The notes beneath the pieces are model-generated. The model did not search any database. It saw only the letters and a list, made by a program, of their open reading frames with translations, and was not told where the DNA came from. From contig NZ_JAQSDC010000054.1 of the NCBI RefSeq assembly GCF_029945705.1, forward strand, positions 1 through 64,000: a DNA stretch of 64,000 nucleotides. Direction: 5' to 3'. Origin of the DNA: Methylotenera sp. (lineage in GTDB: Bacteria; Pseudomonadota; Gammaproteobacteria; Burkholderiales; Methylophilaceae). Positions 29,324 to 45,817 of this stretch are shown here, piece after piece. Made by a program: the position numbers and the translations under genes. Every line of letters starts with the position of its first letter. The first letter of the stretch is position 1.

Positions 29324-30160
29324 ATGGCAACATACGCAATAGGTGATATTCAGGGTTGTTACCATGCTTTTCAGGCATTGTTGGCGCGTATTGGGTTTAA
29401 TCCAAAAGTCGATGAACTCTGGTTGGTTGGGGATTTAATCAATAGAGGAAGTGGTTCGCTTGAAGTGCTGCGTTGGTGCTATGAGCATCAAAATAGCCTA
29501 AAAGTGGTGCTTGGTAATCATGATTTGCATGCGCTGGTTGTTGCGGCTGGGTTTGTTAATGCACATAAGGGCGATACGCTAGACGCAATACTGCAGGCTG
29601 GTGATCGCGATGTTTTGTTAAATTGGTTGCGACATCAGCATATGGTTTACCAAAATGAATCGTATTTAATGGTTCATGCGGGTTTACTACCGCAATGGAC
29701 CAGCGAGCAAGCCGCTGACTACGCCACAGAAGTGGAGGCGGCTTTACGAAGCGAAGATTACTTAAATTTTTTAGCCCATATGTATGGTAATCAGCCTGAT
29801 AGTTGGAATGATGGCTTACTGGGTTTGGACAGATTGCGTGTAATCACTAATGCCATGACACGGCTAAGAGTATGCACAGAGCAGGGTGTGATGGAGTTTA
29901 GCTTTAAGGGTGAGCTAGCCGATGTGCCTGATGGATTTGTGCCTTGGTTTGATATGAAAAATCGCGCAAGCCAAGATAAACATGTAATTTTTGGACACTG
30001 GTCTGCACTTGGTTTGCAGCAACGGCAGAATGTGTACGCATTGGATACGGGCTGTTTATGGGGCGGTCAGCTGACAGCAATGAATCTAGAAACCAAAGCA
30101 ATTACACAGGTGCAATCACACCCACTCGACAAGCCAATCAAGCTTAAGTTAAAGCTTTAA
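29324..30160 (+). CDS. apaH: Symmetrical bis(5'-nucleosyl)-tetraphosphatase (Ap4A hydrolase)
   Basis: A 278-residue metallophosphatase that splits Ap4A into two ADP. Metal-site motifs are AIGDIQGCYHAF, LVGDLINRGSGSLEVL and VLGNHDLHAL, with the later histidines in MVHAGLLPQW and IFGHWSALGL. The length is normal for ApaH. The GGTAAGG ribosome site overlaps the end of the upstream terminator. Its stop codon overlaps the stop of the convergent olsA by 3 bp. Confidence 0.95.
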   Translation: MATYAIGDIQGCYHAFQALLARIGFNPKVDELWLVGDLINRGSGSLEVLRWCYEHQNSLKVVLGNHDLHALVVAAGFVNAHKGDTLDAILQAGDRDVLLNWLRHQHMVYQNESYLMVHAGLLPQWTSEQAADYATEVEAALRSEDYLNFLAHMYGNQPDSWNDGLLGLDRLRVITNAMTRLRVCTEQGVMEFSFKGELADVPDGFVPWFDMKNRASQDKHVIFGHWSALGLQQRQNVYALDTGCLWGGQLTAMNLETKAITQVQSHPLDKPIKLKLKL

Positions 30161-31017
30161 TTTAAGCTTAACTTTTCTCTAATTAAATGCTCAATATGTG
30201 AAGTGAGTTTTCGGCGATCTTTATCAACTGCCGTTAACTCAGAGGTGGCTATAGGAGCTAAAAAATGTAGCTCAACTACCACTTCTTTTTGCTGTAATAC
30301 CAACTGTATAGATTCTATTAAAGTTGTTTCTCCAGCATATGCAATCTCCGTATTTACGCCGCCATCCTGACGAGGGTAGCGAAATGCAATTGGCCAGATC
30401 AGAGCATTTGCATGTATTGCCCCTTGAATAATGCTGCTCTTGAATGGCTTAATCTCAGTGCCATCTGTCGTTGTGCCTTCAGGAAACAAGCAAAGCGTAT
30501 CACCATCTAATAGGCTTTGATTGGTCGCATGCACAATGCGAGCAGCATCTTGACGCCGCTCTCTGGAAATAAATAACACATTCGATTTTTTAGCGAGATA
30601 GCCAAATACAGGCCAACTTTGAATGTCTGACTTTGCGATAAATCTTGTTGGAATAACGCTATTGAGCGCATGAATATCAATCCAAGAAATATGGTTGGCA
30701 ACAAACATGATGTTGCCCGCAGTTTGATATGGCGGTGGTAAATGCCCTTTACTCACAAGCCGTATATTAAAAACCCCTAATAAATATTTACACCACCACT
30801 TGATTAACCGTAATTTAAACAATTTATTAGATAGCGGAAACACCAATGCCGCTACTGCTATTCCTAGCAAAGTATGTAAAAAAATGCGGCTGATTCTAAA
30901 GTAGCGAGTGAGTCTGCTAGCTCTAGTAGGTGTGATAGTAGGCGTATTAATGGCGTTATTTTTAATCGATTTCAATACCTCATATTTTATACGTAACGCA
31001 CTTGCAAAACTAATCAT
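30157..31017 (-). CDS. olsA: 1-acyl-glycerol-3-phosphate acyltransferase family; probable lyso-ornithine lipid acyltransferase OlsA
   Basis: A 286-residue PlsC-type acyltransferase. An N-terminal hydrophobic region (about residues 42-65) precedes the HX4D motif (ANHISWID), the FISRERR motif and the substrate-binding FPEGTTTDG. By family it could make phosphatidic acid. The gene directly upstream, 27 bp away, is an OlsB-type ornithine N-acyltransferase, so the better reading is OlsA, which adds the second acyl chain to lyso-ornithine lipid. It ends convergent with apaH. Confidence 0.78.
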   Translation of the reverse strand: MISFASALRIKYEVLKSIKNNAINTPTITPTRASRLTRYFRISRIFLHTLLGIAVAALVFPLSNKLFKLRLIKWWCKYLLGVFNIRLVSKGHLPPPYQTAGNIMFVANHISWIDIHALNSVIPTRFIAKSDIQSWPVFGYLAKKSNVLFISRERRQDAARIVHATNQSLLDGDTLCLFPEGTTTDGTEIKPFKSSIIQGAIHANALIWPIAFRYPRQDGGVNTEIAYAGETTLIESIQLVLQQKEVVVELHFLAPIATSELTAVDKDRRKLTSHIEHLIREKLSLN

Positions 31018-31044: not shown

Positions 31045-31845
31045 TTATTTCAAAAAATGCGTTGCGTACCTAGTATTCATTCTGCTCAGCGGCAACATGA
31101 CCAACATATCTGCCGTGTTGAAATAAGGATCCCATGCAGGTTCGCCGCAAATGTAAGCGCCAAGACGTAAGTAGCCTTTAATTAATGGAGGACAAGCCGC
31201 TTGCATATCGGTGCGTAAAGAATCATTTAGCAATGGATTCCGTGGAAATACGCGGTATTCAAGTGGGCATAAGTAGTCATCTTGCAGTCTGTGATACAGG
31301 CTTGCCGCAGCGTGACCGCCATCAGCCATGCTCACACTGCCACAACCTATCATGTACTCATAGTTGTGAACTTGCATATATTTAGCTAAACCTGCCCAAA
31401 GCATTGTAATGGTGCCACCGTTACGATAGTTCTGGTGTACGCATGCACGTCCAACTTCAACCGTGCGGTCAAATAAGTGCGACAGTCTGCTTAAATCAAA
31501 CTCAGCAGCAGAGTAATAGCCGCCTGCTTCATTTGCCTTTGAGGGGCTAAGCATTCTATAAGTACCAATCACTTGGTTAGTGCTTGTGTCTCTTACAATT
31601 AAGTGGTCGCAATACTGGTCAAAGCCATCTACATCAAGCCCGCCAGTACCTAATAGTTGGGCACCCATTTCCTCAGCAAAAACCTTGTAACGTAAGCGTT
31701 GAGCTTCTTCAATTTCTAGTTGGCTGTGTGCAAGACTGATGCTAAGGCGCTTTTGATCGTGAGTTGCGACGTGCGTCAATTTTTGATTGGCTGCGAGTGT
31801 GCTACCGAGAGTAATATCAAGTGCTGAAAACTCTTTATTTATCAT
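31045..31845 (-). CDS. olsB: L-ornithine N(alpha)-acyltransferase (OlsB-like GNAT)
   Basis: A 266-residue GNAT-fold acyl-ACP-dependent N-acyltransferase of the OlsB/haemolysin-like group. Characteristic stretches are AQRLRYKVFAEEMGAQL, DQYCDHLIVRD, VIGTYRMLSP, TVEVGRACVHQNYRNGGTI and GCGSVSMADGGHAA. OlsB joins a 3-hydroxy fatty acid to ornithine to give lyso-ornithine lipid, the first step to phosphate-free ornithine lipids. A GAGGAG ribosome site precedes the ATG. Upstream lies a row of Pho-box-like repeats (31889-31928). This fits known phosphate-starvation control of olsB in rhizobia and suggests PhoB control here. Confidence 0.83.
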   Translation of the reverse strand: MINKEFSALDITLGSTLAANQKLTHVATHDQKRLSISLAHSQLEIEEAQRLRYKVFAEEMGAQLLGTGGLDVDGFDQYCDHLIVRDTSTNQVIGTYRMLSPSKANEAGGYYSAAEFDLSRLSHLFDRTVEVGRACVHQNYRNGGTITMLWAGLAKYMQVHNYEYMIGCGSVSMADGGHAAASLYHRLQDDYLCPLEYRVFPRNPLLNDSLRTDMQAACPPLIKGYLRLGAYICGEPAWDPYFNTADMLVMLPLSRMNTRYATHFLK

Positions 31846-31888
31846 TAAATGTCTCCTCTTAAATTTAAGGTGACTTTAATGAACAAAA

Positions 31889-31928
31889 GTGAACAATAGA
31901 TGACGGAAATATGACTTTTTGTTGACAG
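31889..31928 (-). promoter_or_regulatory. Tandem Pho-box array upstream of olsB
   Basis: On the minus strand the heptamers CTGTCAA, AAGTCAT, CCGTCAT and TGTTCAC occur with exact 11-bp periodicity and 4-bp AT-rich spacers. This is the form of PhoB-binding direct repeats (consensus CTGTCAT). The GTCA core is perfect in three and has one mismatch in the fourth. The array lies 44-83 bp before the olsB start. Confidence 0.7.
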
Positions 31929-43613: not shown

Positions 43614-44948
43614 TTATTTTTTAAGCGCAATACGTGCTTTAGGGAATACTGCGCTGAATGTGCTGCCTGCACCTAACTCACTAGAAATTTCCAGCTTAGC
43701 TTGATGGCGAATTAATATATGTTTAACAATTGATAAGCCAAGCCCTGTGCCGCCAGTTTCTCGGCTGCGACTGCGGTCTACTCGGTAAAATCGCTCGGTT
43801 AGTCTGTCAATATGTTGTTGTTCAATGCCAATCCCTGTGTCGCGCACTGAAAATACAGGTTCGCCATTCTGCAATGCCCAGCGGATAAAGATTTCACCCG
43901 TTTTGCCTGATTTCTTATCACCAGCTGGCGTATAACGTATGGCATTGCTGACTAAATTGCTAAAAACGCTACGGAGTTCATCTGCGGCGCCATGCAGGTT
44001 GAGTGTAGGATCAGCTTCAAGATGAATGATATGTTTAGCTTTATTCAAGCCCTGACTTAACCCAACACCATCATTTTGTACAGATTCTAATAAGTTCGAC
44101 ATATCGATTTCACTGTCGTCAGGCTCTTCGGTATTGCTTTCTATGGTGGATAGTGTGAGTAGGTCCTCAATAATCCGACGCATGCGTATGGTTTGGTCTT
44201 CCATCATCGTGAAATAATTTTTTAAGTTATCTGGTACCGCACCTTCCATGTCGGTCAACGTTTCTAAAAAGCCGCCGACTACGGTGAGAGGTGTGCGCAA
44301 CTCATGCGAAACATTTGCAATAAAATCTCTACGCATAATGTCTACTTTTTCGTACTGCGTCATGTTGCGACTAATTAATAACTTTTGATTATTGGCGAAT
44401 GGTATTAGTTGCATTTCGAGAGTGAGCTCAGCGTTGCGCCAAGATTTGAGCTTAAATGGCTCGTCATATTTTTCATTATATAAGTAAGCAATAAAGTGAC
44501 TATTGCGAATTAAATTAACCACTGGGAGCATTCTGTCAGTGACTAAATTTAATCCAAGCTGATGTTCAGCATTGGGCGTACACCATTCAATTTCATTACT
44601 GGCGCTTAGTATCACCAATCCGTCTGGCATTGCGCTGGTAGCAAGGTTAAAGCGCTCAAGTGCAGCGTTTAGTTGATTCTGATTTTGGTTGTTATTGCGC
44701 TCATATTTGAGTAGAGCAATGAAAATATCTTCCCACACACCTGAACCTTCGGGAATCTCTTTGAGACCCGGAGATTTAAACCAGTTTTGTAGTGCATGTA
44801 GCCAATAGATATGGCTTGCTATATAGAACAATAGGCCAGCAATGAATACGATAAGTGCGGTATTGATGCTAGTTATTAGCCAGAAAAATAGGCTGATGAC
44901 ACTTAGCGCACAAACGAATAGACCAGCTTTCCAACGAATATCTAGCAC
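43614..44948 (-). CDS. phoR: Phosphate regulon sensor histidine kinase
   Basis: A 444-residue membrane kinase with two N-terminal TM segments (about 8-27 and 30-50) and no periplasmic sensor domain. It has a PAS-like domain (about 97-200), HisKA with the phosphorylated histidine about 215 (FIANVSHELRTPLT) and a HATPase domain (NLVSNAIRYTPAG, DTGIGI, GGTGLGLSIVKH). This shape is PhoR: it senses phosphate through the Pst/PhoU system, not a ligand of its own. It follows phoB by 101 bp. Confidence 0.93.
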   Translation of the reverse strand: MLDIRWKAGLFVCALSVISLFFWLITSINTALIVFIAGLLFYIASHIYWLHALQNWFKSPGLKEIPEGSGVWEDIFIALLKYERNNNQNQNQLNAALERFNLATSAMPDGLVILSASNEIEWCTPNAEHQLGLNLVTDRMLPVVNLIRNSHFIAYLYNEKYDEPFKLKSWRNAELTLEMQLIPFANNQKLLISRNMTQYEKVDIMRRDFIANVSHELRTPLTVVGGFLETLTDMEGAVPDNLKNYFTMMEDQTIRMRRIIEDLLTLSTIESNTEEPDDSEIDMSNLLESVQNDGVGLSQGLNKAKHIIHLEADPTLNLHGAADELRSVFSNLVSNAIRYTPAGDKKSGKTGEIFIRWALQNGEPVFSVRDTGIGIEQQHIDRLTERFYRVDRSRSRETGGTGLGLSIVKHILIRHQAKLEISSELGAGSTFSAVFPKARIALKK

Positions 44949-45049: not shown

Positions 45050-45742
45050 TTAATCGTTTTTTTCTGACAATCTATAGCCTGCACCACGTACGGTTTGAAT
45101 TAAATCTTCATGACCTGAAAGTGAAAGCGCATTACGCAAGCGGCGAATATGTACATCGACTGTGCGATCTTCAACAAAAACGCGGTCGCCCCAAACTTTA
45201 TCTAAAAGCTGGCTGCGTGTGTGTACTCGTTCTGCATTCGTCATAAAGAAGTGTAATAGTCTAAATTCGGTTGGACCTAAGTCTATTGTTTTACTGTTAC
45301 CAGTGACGCGATGAGTGGTAGGGTCTAAGCGTAGGCCAGCCATTTCAATAGGGTCATCTGTCATTTGTGGTGCGCGGCGACGTAACACCGCTTTAATACG
45401 CGCATTTAATTCACGCGGGCTAAATGGTTTAGTCACGTAATCATCTGCGCCAACTTCTAAACCACGTACTTTGTCGTATTCATCGCCACGAGCCGTCAGC
45501 ATGATAATCGGGATAGTCTTTGTTAGGCTGTCTGATTTCAATAGGCGAGCAAACTCTAAGCCGTTCATGCCTGGTAGCATCCAATCCAACAGAATCAAAT
45601 CTGGAATAGTTTCGCGCATTAGGTTTTGTGCAATCTCTACACTTAATGCACGCATAGCATTGTGTCCCGCTTGAGTAATGTTTAGCGCGAGCAGTTCTTG
45701 AATCGCTGGTTCATCTTCCACAACTAATATATTGGCAGGCAT
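45050..45742 (-). CDS. phoB: Phosphate regulon response regulator
   Basis: A 230-residue OmpR-class regulator. The receiver domain has the phospho-acceptor D53 (LILLDWMLPGMNG) and the conserved Thr and Lys (MLTARGDEYDKVRGL, DDYVTKPFSPREL). The C-terminal winged-helix domain carries VDVHIRRLRNALSLSGHEDLIQTVRGAGYRL, typical of PhoB. GAGGAAG precedes the ATG. A Pho box at 45800-45817 suggests it controls its own gene. Its array-type sites also lie before olsB. Confidence 0.95.
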   Translation of the reverse strand: MPANILVVEDEPAIQELLALNITQAGHNAMRALSVEIAQNLMRETIPDLILLDWMLPGMNGLEFARLLKSDSLTKTIPIIMLTARGDEYDKVRGLEVGADDYVTKPFSPRELNARIKAVLRRRAPQMTDDPIEMAGLRLDPTTHRVTGNSKTIDLGPTEFRLLHFFMTNAERVHTRSQLLDKVWGDRVFVEDRTVDVHIRRLRNALSLSGHEDLIQTVRGAGYRLSEKND

Positions 45743-45799
45743 AGCTTCCTCTTGAATGTACTTTTTATTACTTTATTTTTGCCAGTTTATGATTTAAAT

Positions 45800-45817
45800 G
45801 TGACATATTCATGACAA
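45800..45817 (-). promoter_or_regulatory. Pho box upstream of phoB
   Basis: On the minus strand, TTGTCAT-GAAT-ATGTCAC: two 7-bp direct repeats with a 4-bp spacer, close to the PhoB consensus. It is 58 bp before the phoB ATG and about 9 bp before a weak CATAAA -10. Confidence 0.7.

Follow-up and report, generated by a model that had tools for sequence, protein, structure and literature searches.

Upstream of olsB and olsA in a Methylotenera genome (Methylophilaceae), we find a row of four 11-bp direct repeats that very probably binds PhoB and thereby activates a sigma-70 promoter driving both genes, such that low phosphate would lead to ornithine lipid replacing phospholipid. PhoB control of ornithine lipids is already published in other bacteria; new here are the family-wide scope, the apparent loss of the row in a streamlined clade and a second lipid locus with a similar site. 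The window, as we call the whole stretch of DNA analysed, comprises 64,000 nucleotides (NCBI RefSeq assembly GCF_029945705.1, contig NZ_JAQSDC010000054.1, positions 1 to 64,000), and sequence is what shows the genes, the PhoB/PhoR pair, the row, how well the row is conserved and the geometry of the promoter.

The repeat row and the genes behind it

The row occupies positions 31889–31928 of the minus strand. Its heptamers, CTGTCAA (31928–31922), AAGTCAT (31917–31911), CCGTCAT (31906–31900) and TGTTCAC (31895–31889), follow one another in steps of exactly 11 bp and lie 44–83 bp before the ATG of olsB (31845). The original prediction, of four GTCA-type heptamers in just this arrangement on the minus strand, is borne out by direct reading, with the precision that three cores are exact GTCA and the fourth is TTCA. 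Direct repeats of GTCA-core heptamers at 11-bp steps, a feature expected of Pho promoters, are thus present before olsB.

How far such an arrangement could arise by chance depends on how strictly it is defined. For the exact pattern GTCA-N7-GTCA-N7-GTCA, the window has a single instance and 100 shuffled windows have none; across the whole genome (2,931,772 bases) its single occurrence is the olsB row, and a reversed control has none. Under looser scoring, by matches to the consensus heptamer of E. coli, the best three units of the row reach 17/21, which 4 of 100 shuffled windows equal; a two-unit score of 11/14 is equalled by all 100, at 5.4 such sites per shuffled window. Because shuffled windows also attain these looser consensus scores, it is conservation that carries weight for the row. 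A two-unit consensus scan of the window was likewise set aside as a locator: it did not single out the olsB site, for which a row of 3–4 units or conservation is needed. We also rejected an apparent fifth repeat, TTCATTAAAGT, which is out of register and belongs instead to the conserved −10 region.

The genes behind the row are a candidate ornithine N-acyltransferase of 266 amino acids (olsB, 31045–31845, minus strand; PF13444) and, after a gap of 27 bp, a candidate lyso-ornithine lipid O-acyltransferase of 286 amino acids (olsA, 30157–31017, minus strand; PF01553). The best NCBIfam models are OlsB and OlsA, respectively, with scores that miss the cut-offs (180.6 bits against 320 for olsB, 131.9 against 300 for olsA); the names of these models (BRUA, RHOCB) suggest that they point to narrow lineages. 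An OlsB GNAT acyltransferase adjoining an OlsA PlsC-type acyltransferase is the arrangement of the OlsBA pathway, and it is widely kept: olsA comes after olsB in 77 of the 80 named relatives, and the three misses are a locus that ends at olsB (L027) and two with 179 (L084) and 1,319 (L066) bases left. The closest named OlsB relatives are from Methylotenera, at 96% and 93% identity, and olsB is present in 104 of 120 family genomes.

Conservation of the row among relatives

Each named locus was scored on both strands against the E. coli heptamer and compared with 200 dinucleotide shuffles of its own; 79 of the 80 loci had sufficient upstream DNA, the exception being L058. The original prediction had staked itself on the repeats being kept upstream of olsB in related species, and kept they are: at p ≤ 0.01 the coding strand is significant in 61 of the 79 loci and the opposite strand in none, leaving 18 loci that miss this threshold. 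When 20 genome stretches, some of which repeat named loci, and the window itself are added, the counts become 65 of 100 against 0 of 100 at p ≤ 0.01, and 81 against 6 at p ≤ 0.05. One repeated pair, L084 and L208, gave p values of 0.02 and 0.01, a difference that shows the noise of the shuffles.

Alignment of 36 sites on the row, drawn from 40 loci (L009–L048) and 35 of them distinct in sequence, defines its edges. Mean pairwise identity is 0.25–0.29 per ten bases from −120 to −10, rises to 0.41 in the last ten bases before the row and reaches 0.89 in the first ten of the row itself. The four cores stand at 0.99, 0.96, 0.95 and 0.90, against 0.79, 0.60 and 0.49 for the spacers between them; anchoring on the row inflates these core identities, whereas the sharp upstream edge is not favoured by it. 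Four loci (L033, L045, L046 and L048) were omitted from this set because their rows are shifted or expanded. In L033 (Methylotenera mobilis 13), one 11-bp unit of the olsB row, GCGTCATCTAC, is duplicated.

Upstream of olsB, then, the row stands out as an island of conservation, both across the genus and in most family loci examined. As expected of a Pho promoter, the site is kept before the orthologous gene, with exceptions. In the streamlined genus g15, whose olsB is 45–48% identical, five of six loci (L210–L214) have no significant row and the sixth (L215) gives p = 0.02 on both strands, from which the row appears to have been lost in this clade. It is also not significant in four g13 loci (L219–L222), L209 and L223. 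Outside the family, 90 of 120 genomes of the order had a match, and among the 26 best-matching loci taken from them 12 olsB regions reach p ≤ 0.01, as does the other strand in 1 of 26. No clear row (11/21) precedes a homologue from Sinorhizobium meliloti (CP090106, 38.6% identical), which makes it unusable as a positive control.

Promoter geometry

Beyond the row lie a −10-like hexamer, TAAAGT (31873–31878, minus strand), 15 bp from the fourth core, and a probable ribosome-binding site, AGGAG (31853–31857, minus strand), read from the sequence. The spacing of the hexamer is the same in all 36 relatives, in each of which it begins exactly +15 from the start of the fourth core, as TAAAGT in 33, TACACT in two and TATAGT in one; the accepted hexamers were picked after the sequences had been viewed, and position was left free. 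A −10 hexamer at fixed spacing with the repeat units in the place of the −35 element is accordingly seen in 36 of 36, as in a Pho promoter. In L082 and L083, where the row has another layout, the distance of GTAAAGT from the last GTCA core is unchanged by eye.

Three E. coli Pho promoters share this spacing. In phoA (TATAGT), phoB (CATAAT) and pstS (TATTTT) a hexamer, which we take to be the true −10 element in each case, likewise stands +15 from the last core; at ugpB a good hexamer was looked for at +15 and is absent. Like the olsB row, the phoA, phoB and pstS promoters are built of 11-bp GTCA units, and they differ in what they drive, namely phosphatase, the regulator itself and phosphate uptake. 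A position scan of the named olsB loci peaks at +26, where a fraction of 0.71 has at least four matches to TATAAT; since the scan counts from the third core, this peak is +15 from the fourth. The +15 geometry is the layout expected if PhoB were to stand in for the −35 contact.

PhoB, PhoR and other Pho-type sites

The window itself encodes the putative regulators. The phoB response regulator gene (45050–45742, minus strand) scores 347 bits against TIGR02154, with a cut-off of 296, and the phoR sensor kinase gene (43614–44948, minus strand) 396 bits against TIGR02966, with a cut-off of 334. PhoB is 58% identical to its E. coli counterpart, and the stretch VEDRTVDVHIRRLR, which we take to be the recognition helix, is unchanged. 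Judged by these matches, the pair is genuine. Searching the PDB with this PhoB at E ≤ 1e-50 returned no match. Across the family, PhoB exceeds the cut-off in 110 of 120 genomes; weaker matches, found in all 120, include other OmpR-type regulators. PhoB of G015, G034, G046, G065 and G092 scores under the curated cut-off, and the g15 genomes hold a diverged olsB.

A placement of phoB and phoR about 12 kb from olsB had been offered as a tie between them. The distance stands, at 12–14 kb in the window, and the olsB–phoB spacing is 11–14 kb in 13 of 14 other genus genomes, the two genes lying on different contigs in G102. As an argument for a regulon, however, linkage is weaker, and we set it aside: the row is retained at loci with a distant phoB, for example L053 (p = 0.005), and phoB of G048 is 1.6 Mb away. 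It is therefore not linkage that ties phoB to olsB.

A Pho-type row also precedes phoB (TTGTCAT, ATGTCAC and AAATCAT at 11-bp steps; 45789–45817, minus strand) and is probably a site of autoregulation. With 15/21 it ranks second to the olsB row among the three-unit sites of the window, level with a shifted reading of the olsB row itself. By a plain pattern, Pho-type pairs stand before phoB, pstS and a Porin_5 gene of the same genome, a pattern that numbers 22 occurrences against 11 in a reversed control, only a twofold excess. The Porin_5 gene (L177:12195–13715, G000:C4), with a GTCAT-N6-GTCA pair just upstream, may encode a phosphate-induced porin.

As a reciprocal test, we built a sequence model, R1, from the olsB rows of 35 relatives, leaving out the window, and searched its own genome and 15 genus genomes, scoring 150 of 2,300 first-look candidates. 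Within the window, R1 gives the olsB row 45.5 bits and the next best site 11.6. At that depth of scoring, matches of at least 33.9 bits occur in 14 of the 16 genomes, and in the five genomes compared with the olsB listing (G000, G090, G102, G006 and G040) the match lies directly before olsB. When R1 was run over E. coli phosphate-gene regions (47.5 kb), five of the six top-scoring sites fell upstream of pstS or phoB, though at no more than 6.5–9.2 bits. In G125 it places a 21.0-bit site roughly 160 bp ahead of a PstS-like match, one that does not reach the TIGR00975 cut-off. For the phoB box of the window the R1 score is only 4.6 bits, and pstS of the same genome is absent from the R1 matches listed among the 150 candidates scored. 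The next R1 matches listed in this genome, at C1:18176 (28.9 bits) and C1:19764 (17.9 bits), precede genes for a zinc-dependent phospholipase C (PF00882) and a PAP2 phosphatase.

A second lipid locus

In the same genome a glycosyltransferase of the GT4 family, the zinc phospholipase C and the PAP2 phosphatase form a cluster with Pho-type rows (L170:4846–7709, G000:C1), the GT4 gene being divergent from the phospholipase gene. The best NCBIfam match of GT4 is alpha-monoglucosyldiacylglycerol synthase, at 141.5 bits with a cut-off of 400. The phospholipase has a match in 78 of 120 family genomes, and among the best 30 loci all three genes occur together in 26, with a prokaryotic diacylglycerol kinase, identified by PF01219 in L208, beside the phospholipase gene in 16 and between it and GT4 in 14. 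The two PF01219 matches of our own genome, on C19 and C4, are away from the locus. In at least two genomes (G037 and G003) a glycosyltransferase gene, a 122-amino-acid gene, the phospholipase and PAP2 genes and olsB are contiguous; the 122-amino-acid gene of G037 is a kinase by PF01219, and olsB of G003 has no significant row (L209).

Rows in this locus are most frequent before the phospholipase, where p ≤ 0.01 is reached in 15 of 30 loci (other strand, 2 of 30). Before PAP2 the count is 4 of 27 (other strand, 1 of 27), and before GT4 it is 3 of 27, with 8 of 27 on the other strand of a divergent spacer that GT4 and the phospholipase have in common. A hexamer scan of the GT4 promoters peaks at +15 (0.42); no clear peak emerged for the phospholipase, whose highest value at +10 lies inside the row, or for PAP2, with its highest value at +7.

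In the phospholipase, residues A25-W26-G27, H31, D68, H80, H107, D111, H115, H134 and E138 are invariant in 30 of 30 relatives, and we take them to resemble the zinc ligands of the Bacillus enzyme. Mature Bacillus phospholipase C starts with an N-terminal tryptophan, and in the Methylotenera protein an AxA end precedes a tryptophan; given this likeness and the invariant A25-W26-G27, the enzyme would act in the periplasm. An in-frame stop was counted within the match at L188 and within the phospholipase matches of G003, G007, G043 and G053, and in G003 the match simply overruns the gene's own stop.

A different phospholipase C, PlcP, is presumably a PF00149 metallophosphoesterase, whereas the Methylotenera enzyme belongs to PF00882. 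A PF00149 search of the Methylotenera genome returned ApaH and LpxH only, and no PlcP; a PlcP too diverged for that model may be present. According to PMC9239053, about 3% of PlcP homologues in a lake metatranscriptome were assigned to Methylotenera. In the PlcP–Agt system of Pseudomonas aeruginosa, the genes for phospholipase C and the glycosyltransferase carry Pho boxes, and glycolipids are the product (PMC8528852); the GT4–phospholipase–PAP2 locus would work similarly. Perhaps it constitutes a second, PlcP-independent arm of lipid renovation. The wider scheme, which we put forward tentatively as falling just short of probable, is a two-armed, PhoB-controlled membrane renovation in Methylophilaceae: olsBA would yield ornithine lipid, and the island of GT4, in some genomes diacylglycerol kinase, PF00882 phospholipase C and PAP2 would strip phospholipid and make glycolipid, with a periplasmic phospholipase as an alternative to PlcP.

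Discussion

The reading of the olsB row as a Pho box, as originally proposed, draws support from its conservation and from a −10 spacing shared with three E. coli Pho promoters. By this account, PhoR would phosphorylate PhoB when phosphate is scarce; phosphorylated PhoB molecules would sit next to one another on the 11-bp units, where a −35 element would otherwise stand, and bring in RNA polymerase at the hexamer TAAAGT, 15 bp away from the fourth core; and OlsB and OlsA would then make ornithine lipid, which is phosphorus-free and would substitute for phospholipid. PhoB binding, induction, the lipid product and its benefit are the steps that we infer.

Several known systems resemble the proposed one. 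In Acinetobacter baumannii a Pho box precedes olsB and aminolipid synthesis is PhoR-dependent at low phosphate, although olsA is reported to lie elsewhere and not to be phosphate-regulated (PMC11828411), unlike in Methylotenera, where only 27 bp separate olsB from the olsA behind it and the row is made up of four units. Vibrio cholerae OlsF is described as being under PhoB control (PMC12186959), and Sinorhizobium is also named for phosphate control of ornithine-type lipids (PMC11828411, PMC12186959). Methylosinus trichosporium OB3b, another C1 user, responds to limiting phosphate by making glycolipids and ornithine lipid, but it is a methanotroph of another lineage, and the available text states the role of olsBA there as awaiting validation and describes no Pho box at its olsB (PMC9239053). 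Searches of the open-access literature found nothing joining Methylophilaceae with ornithine lipid, and nothing on olsB with a Pho box in betaproteobacteria; within those searches, the view that Pho control of olsB is little described for this lineage holds. Ornithine lipid in Methylotenera may already have been looked for in published lipid data: PMC11844350, which in its accessible parts treats hopanoids and quinones and gives no result on ornithine lipid in Methylotenera, refers to a data set on the intact polar lipids of M. mobilis (Richter et al. 2023).

Other explanations of the row have to be set against this evidence. That the repeats arose by chance and serve no function is barely credible: shuffled windows do reach the three-unit score of 17/21 (4 of 100), but the exact triple is unique in 2.93 Mb and the row is conserved in relatives on one strand only. 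Alternatively, the row might be a relic or a conserved basal promoter, with olsBA expressed constitutively, as ornithine lipid is in Burkholderia sensu stricto (PMC7814305). The 14 of 26 order-level olsB regions outside the family that miss p ≤ 0.01 would fit such a state, which is nonetheless very unlikely here, as four cores at 0.90–0.99 identity beside essentially random DNA just upstream argue against it, as does the hexamer distance kept under a different row layout in L082 and L083.

There is also a small chance that the row is bound by some other regulator of the OmpR/PhoB family that reads 11-bp direct repeats, in which case olsBA would answer a different stress. The genome offers candidates, with 21 scored matches to the PhoB model, most of them presumably other OmpR-type regulators; ornithine lipids have been linked to other stresses too (PMC12186959), and under R1 the olsB row is unlike the phoB box. 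Against this stand the fit of the cores to the published Pho consensus CTGTCATNNNNCTGTCAT (PMC11828411), the Pho-type pairs before phoB, pstS and the Porin_5 gene of the same genome, and the +15 spacing, which equals that of three E. coli Pho promoters. These points favour PhoB as the protein that would bind the olsB row.

Methylophilaceae are common freshwater methylotrophs. As the row is kept in most of the relatives examined, exchange of membrane lipids on exhaustion of phosphate, known from some other bacteria, is probable for this family too. The GT4–phospholipase–PAP2 island adds a specific lead as to how phospholipid might be removed in the absence of PlcP. If olsBA is indeed a Pho gene family-wide, ornithine lipid in lake samples could report the phosphate stress of Methylophilaceae, and genomes alone would predict which clades are able to renovate their membranes via olsBA and which, apparently including the streamlined g15, are not.
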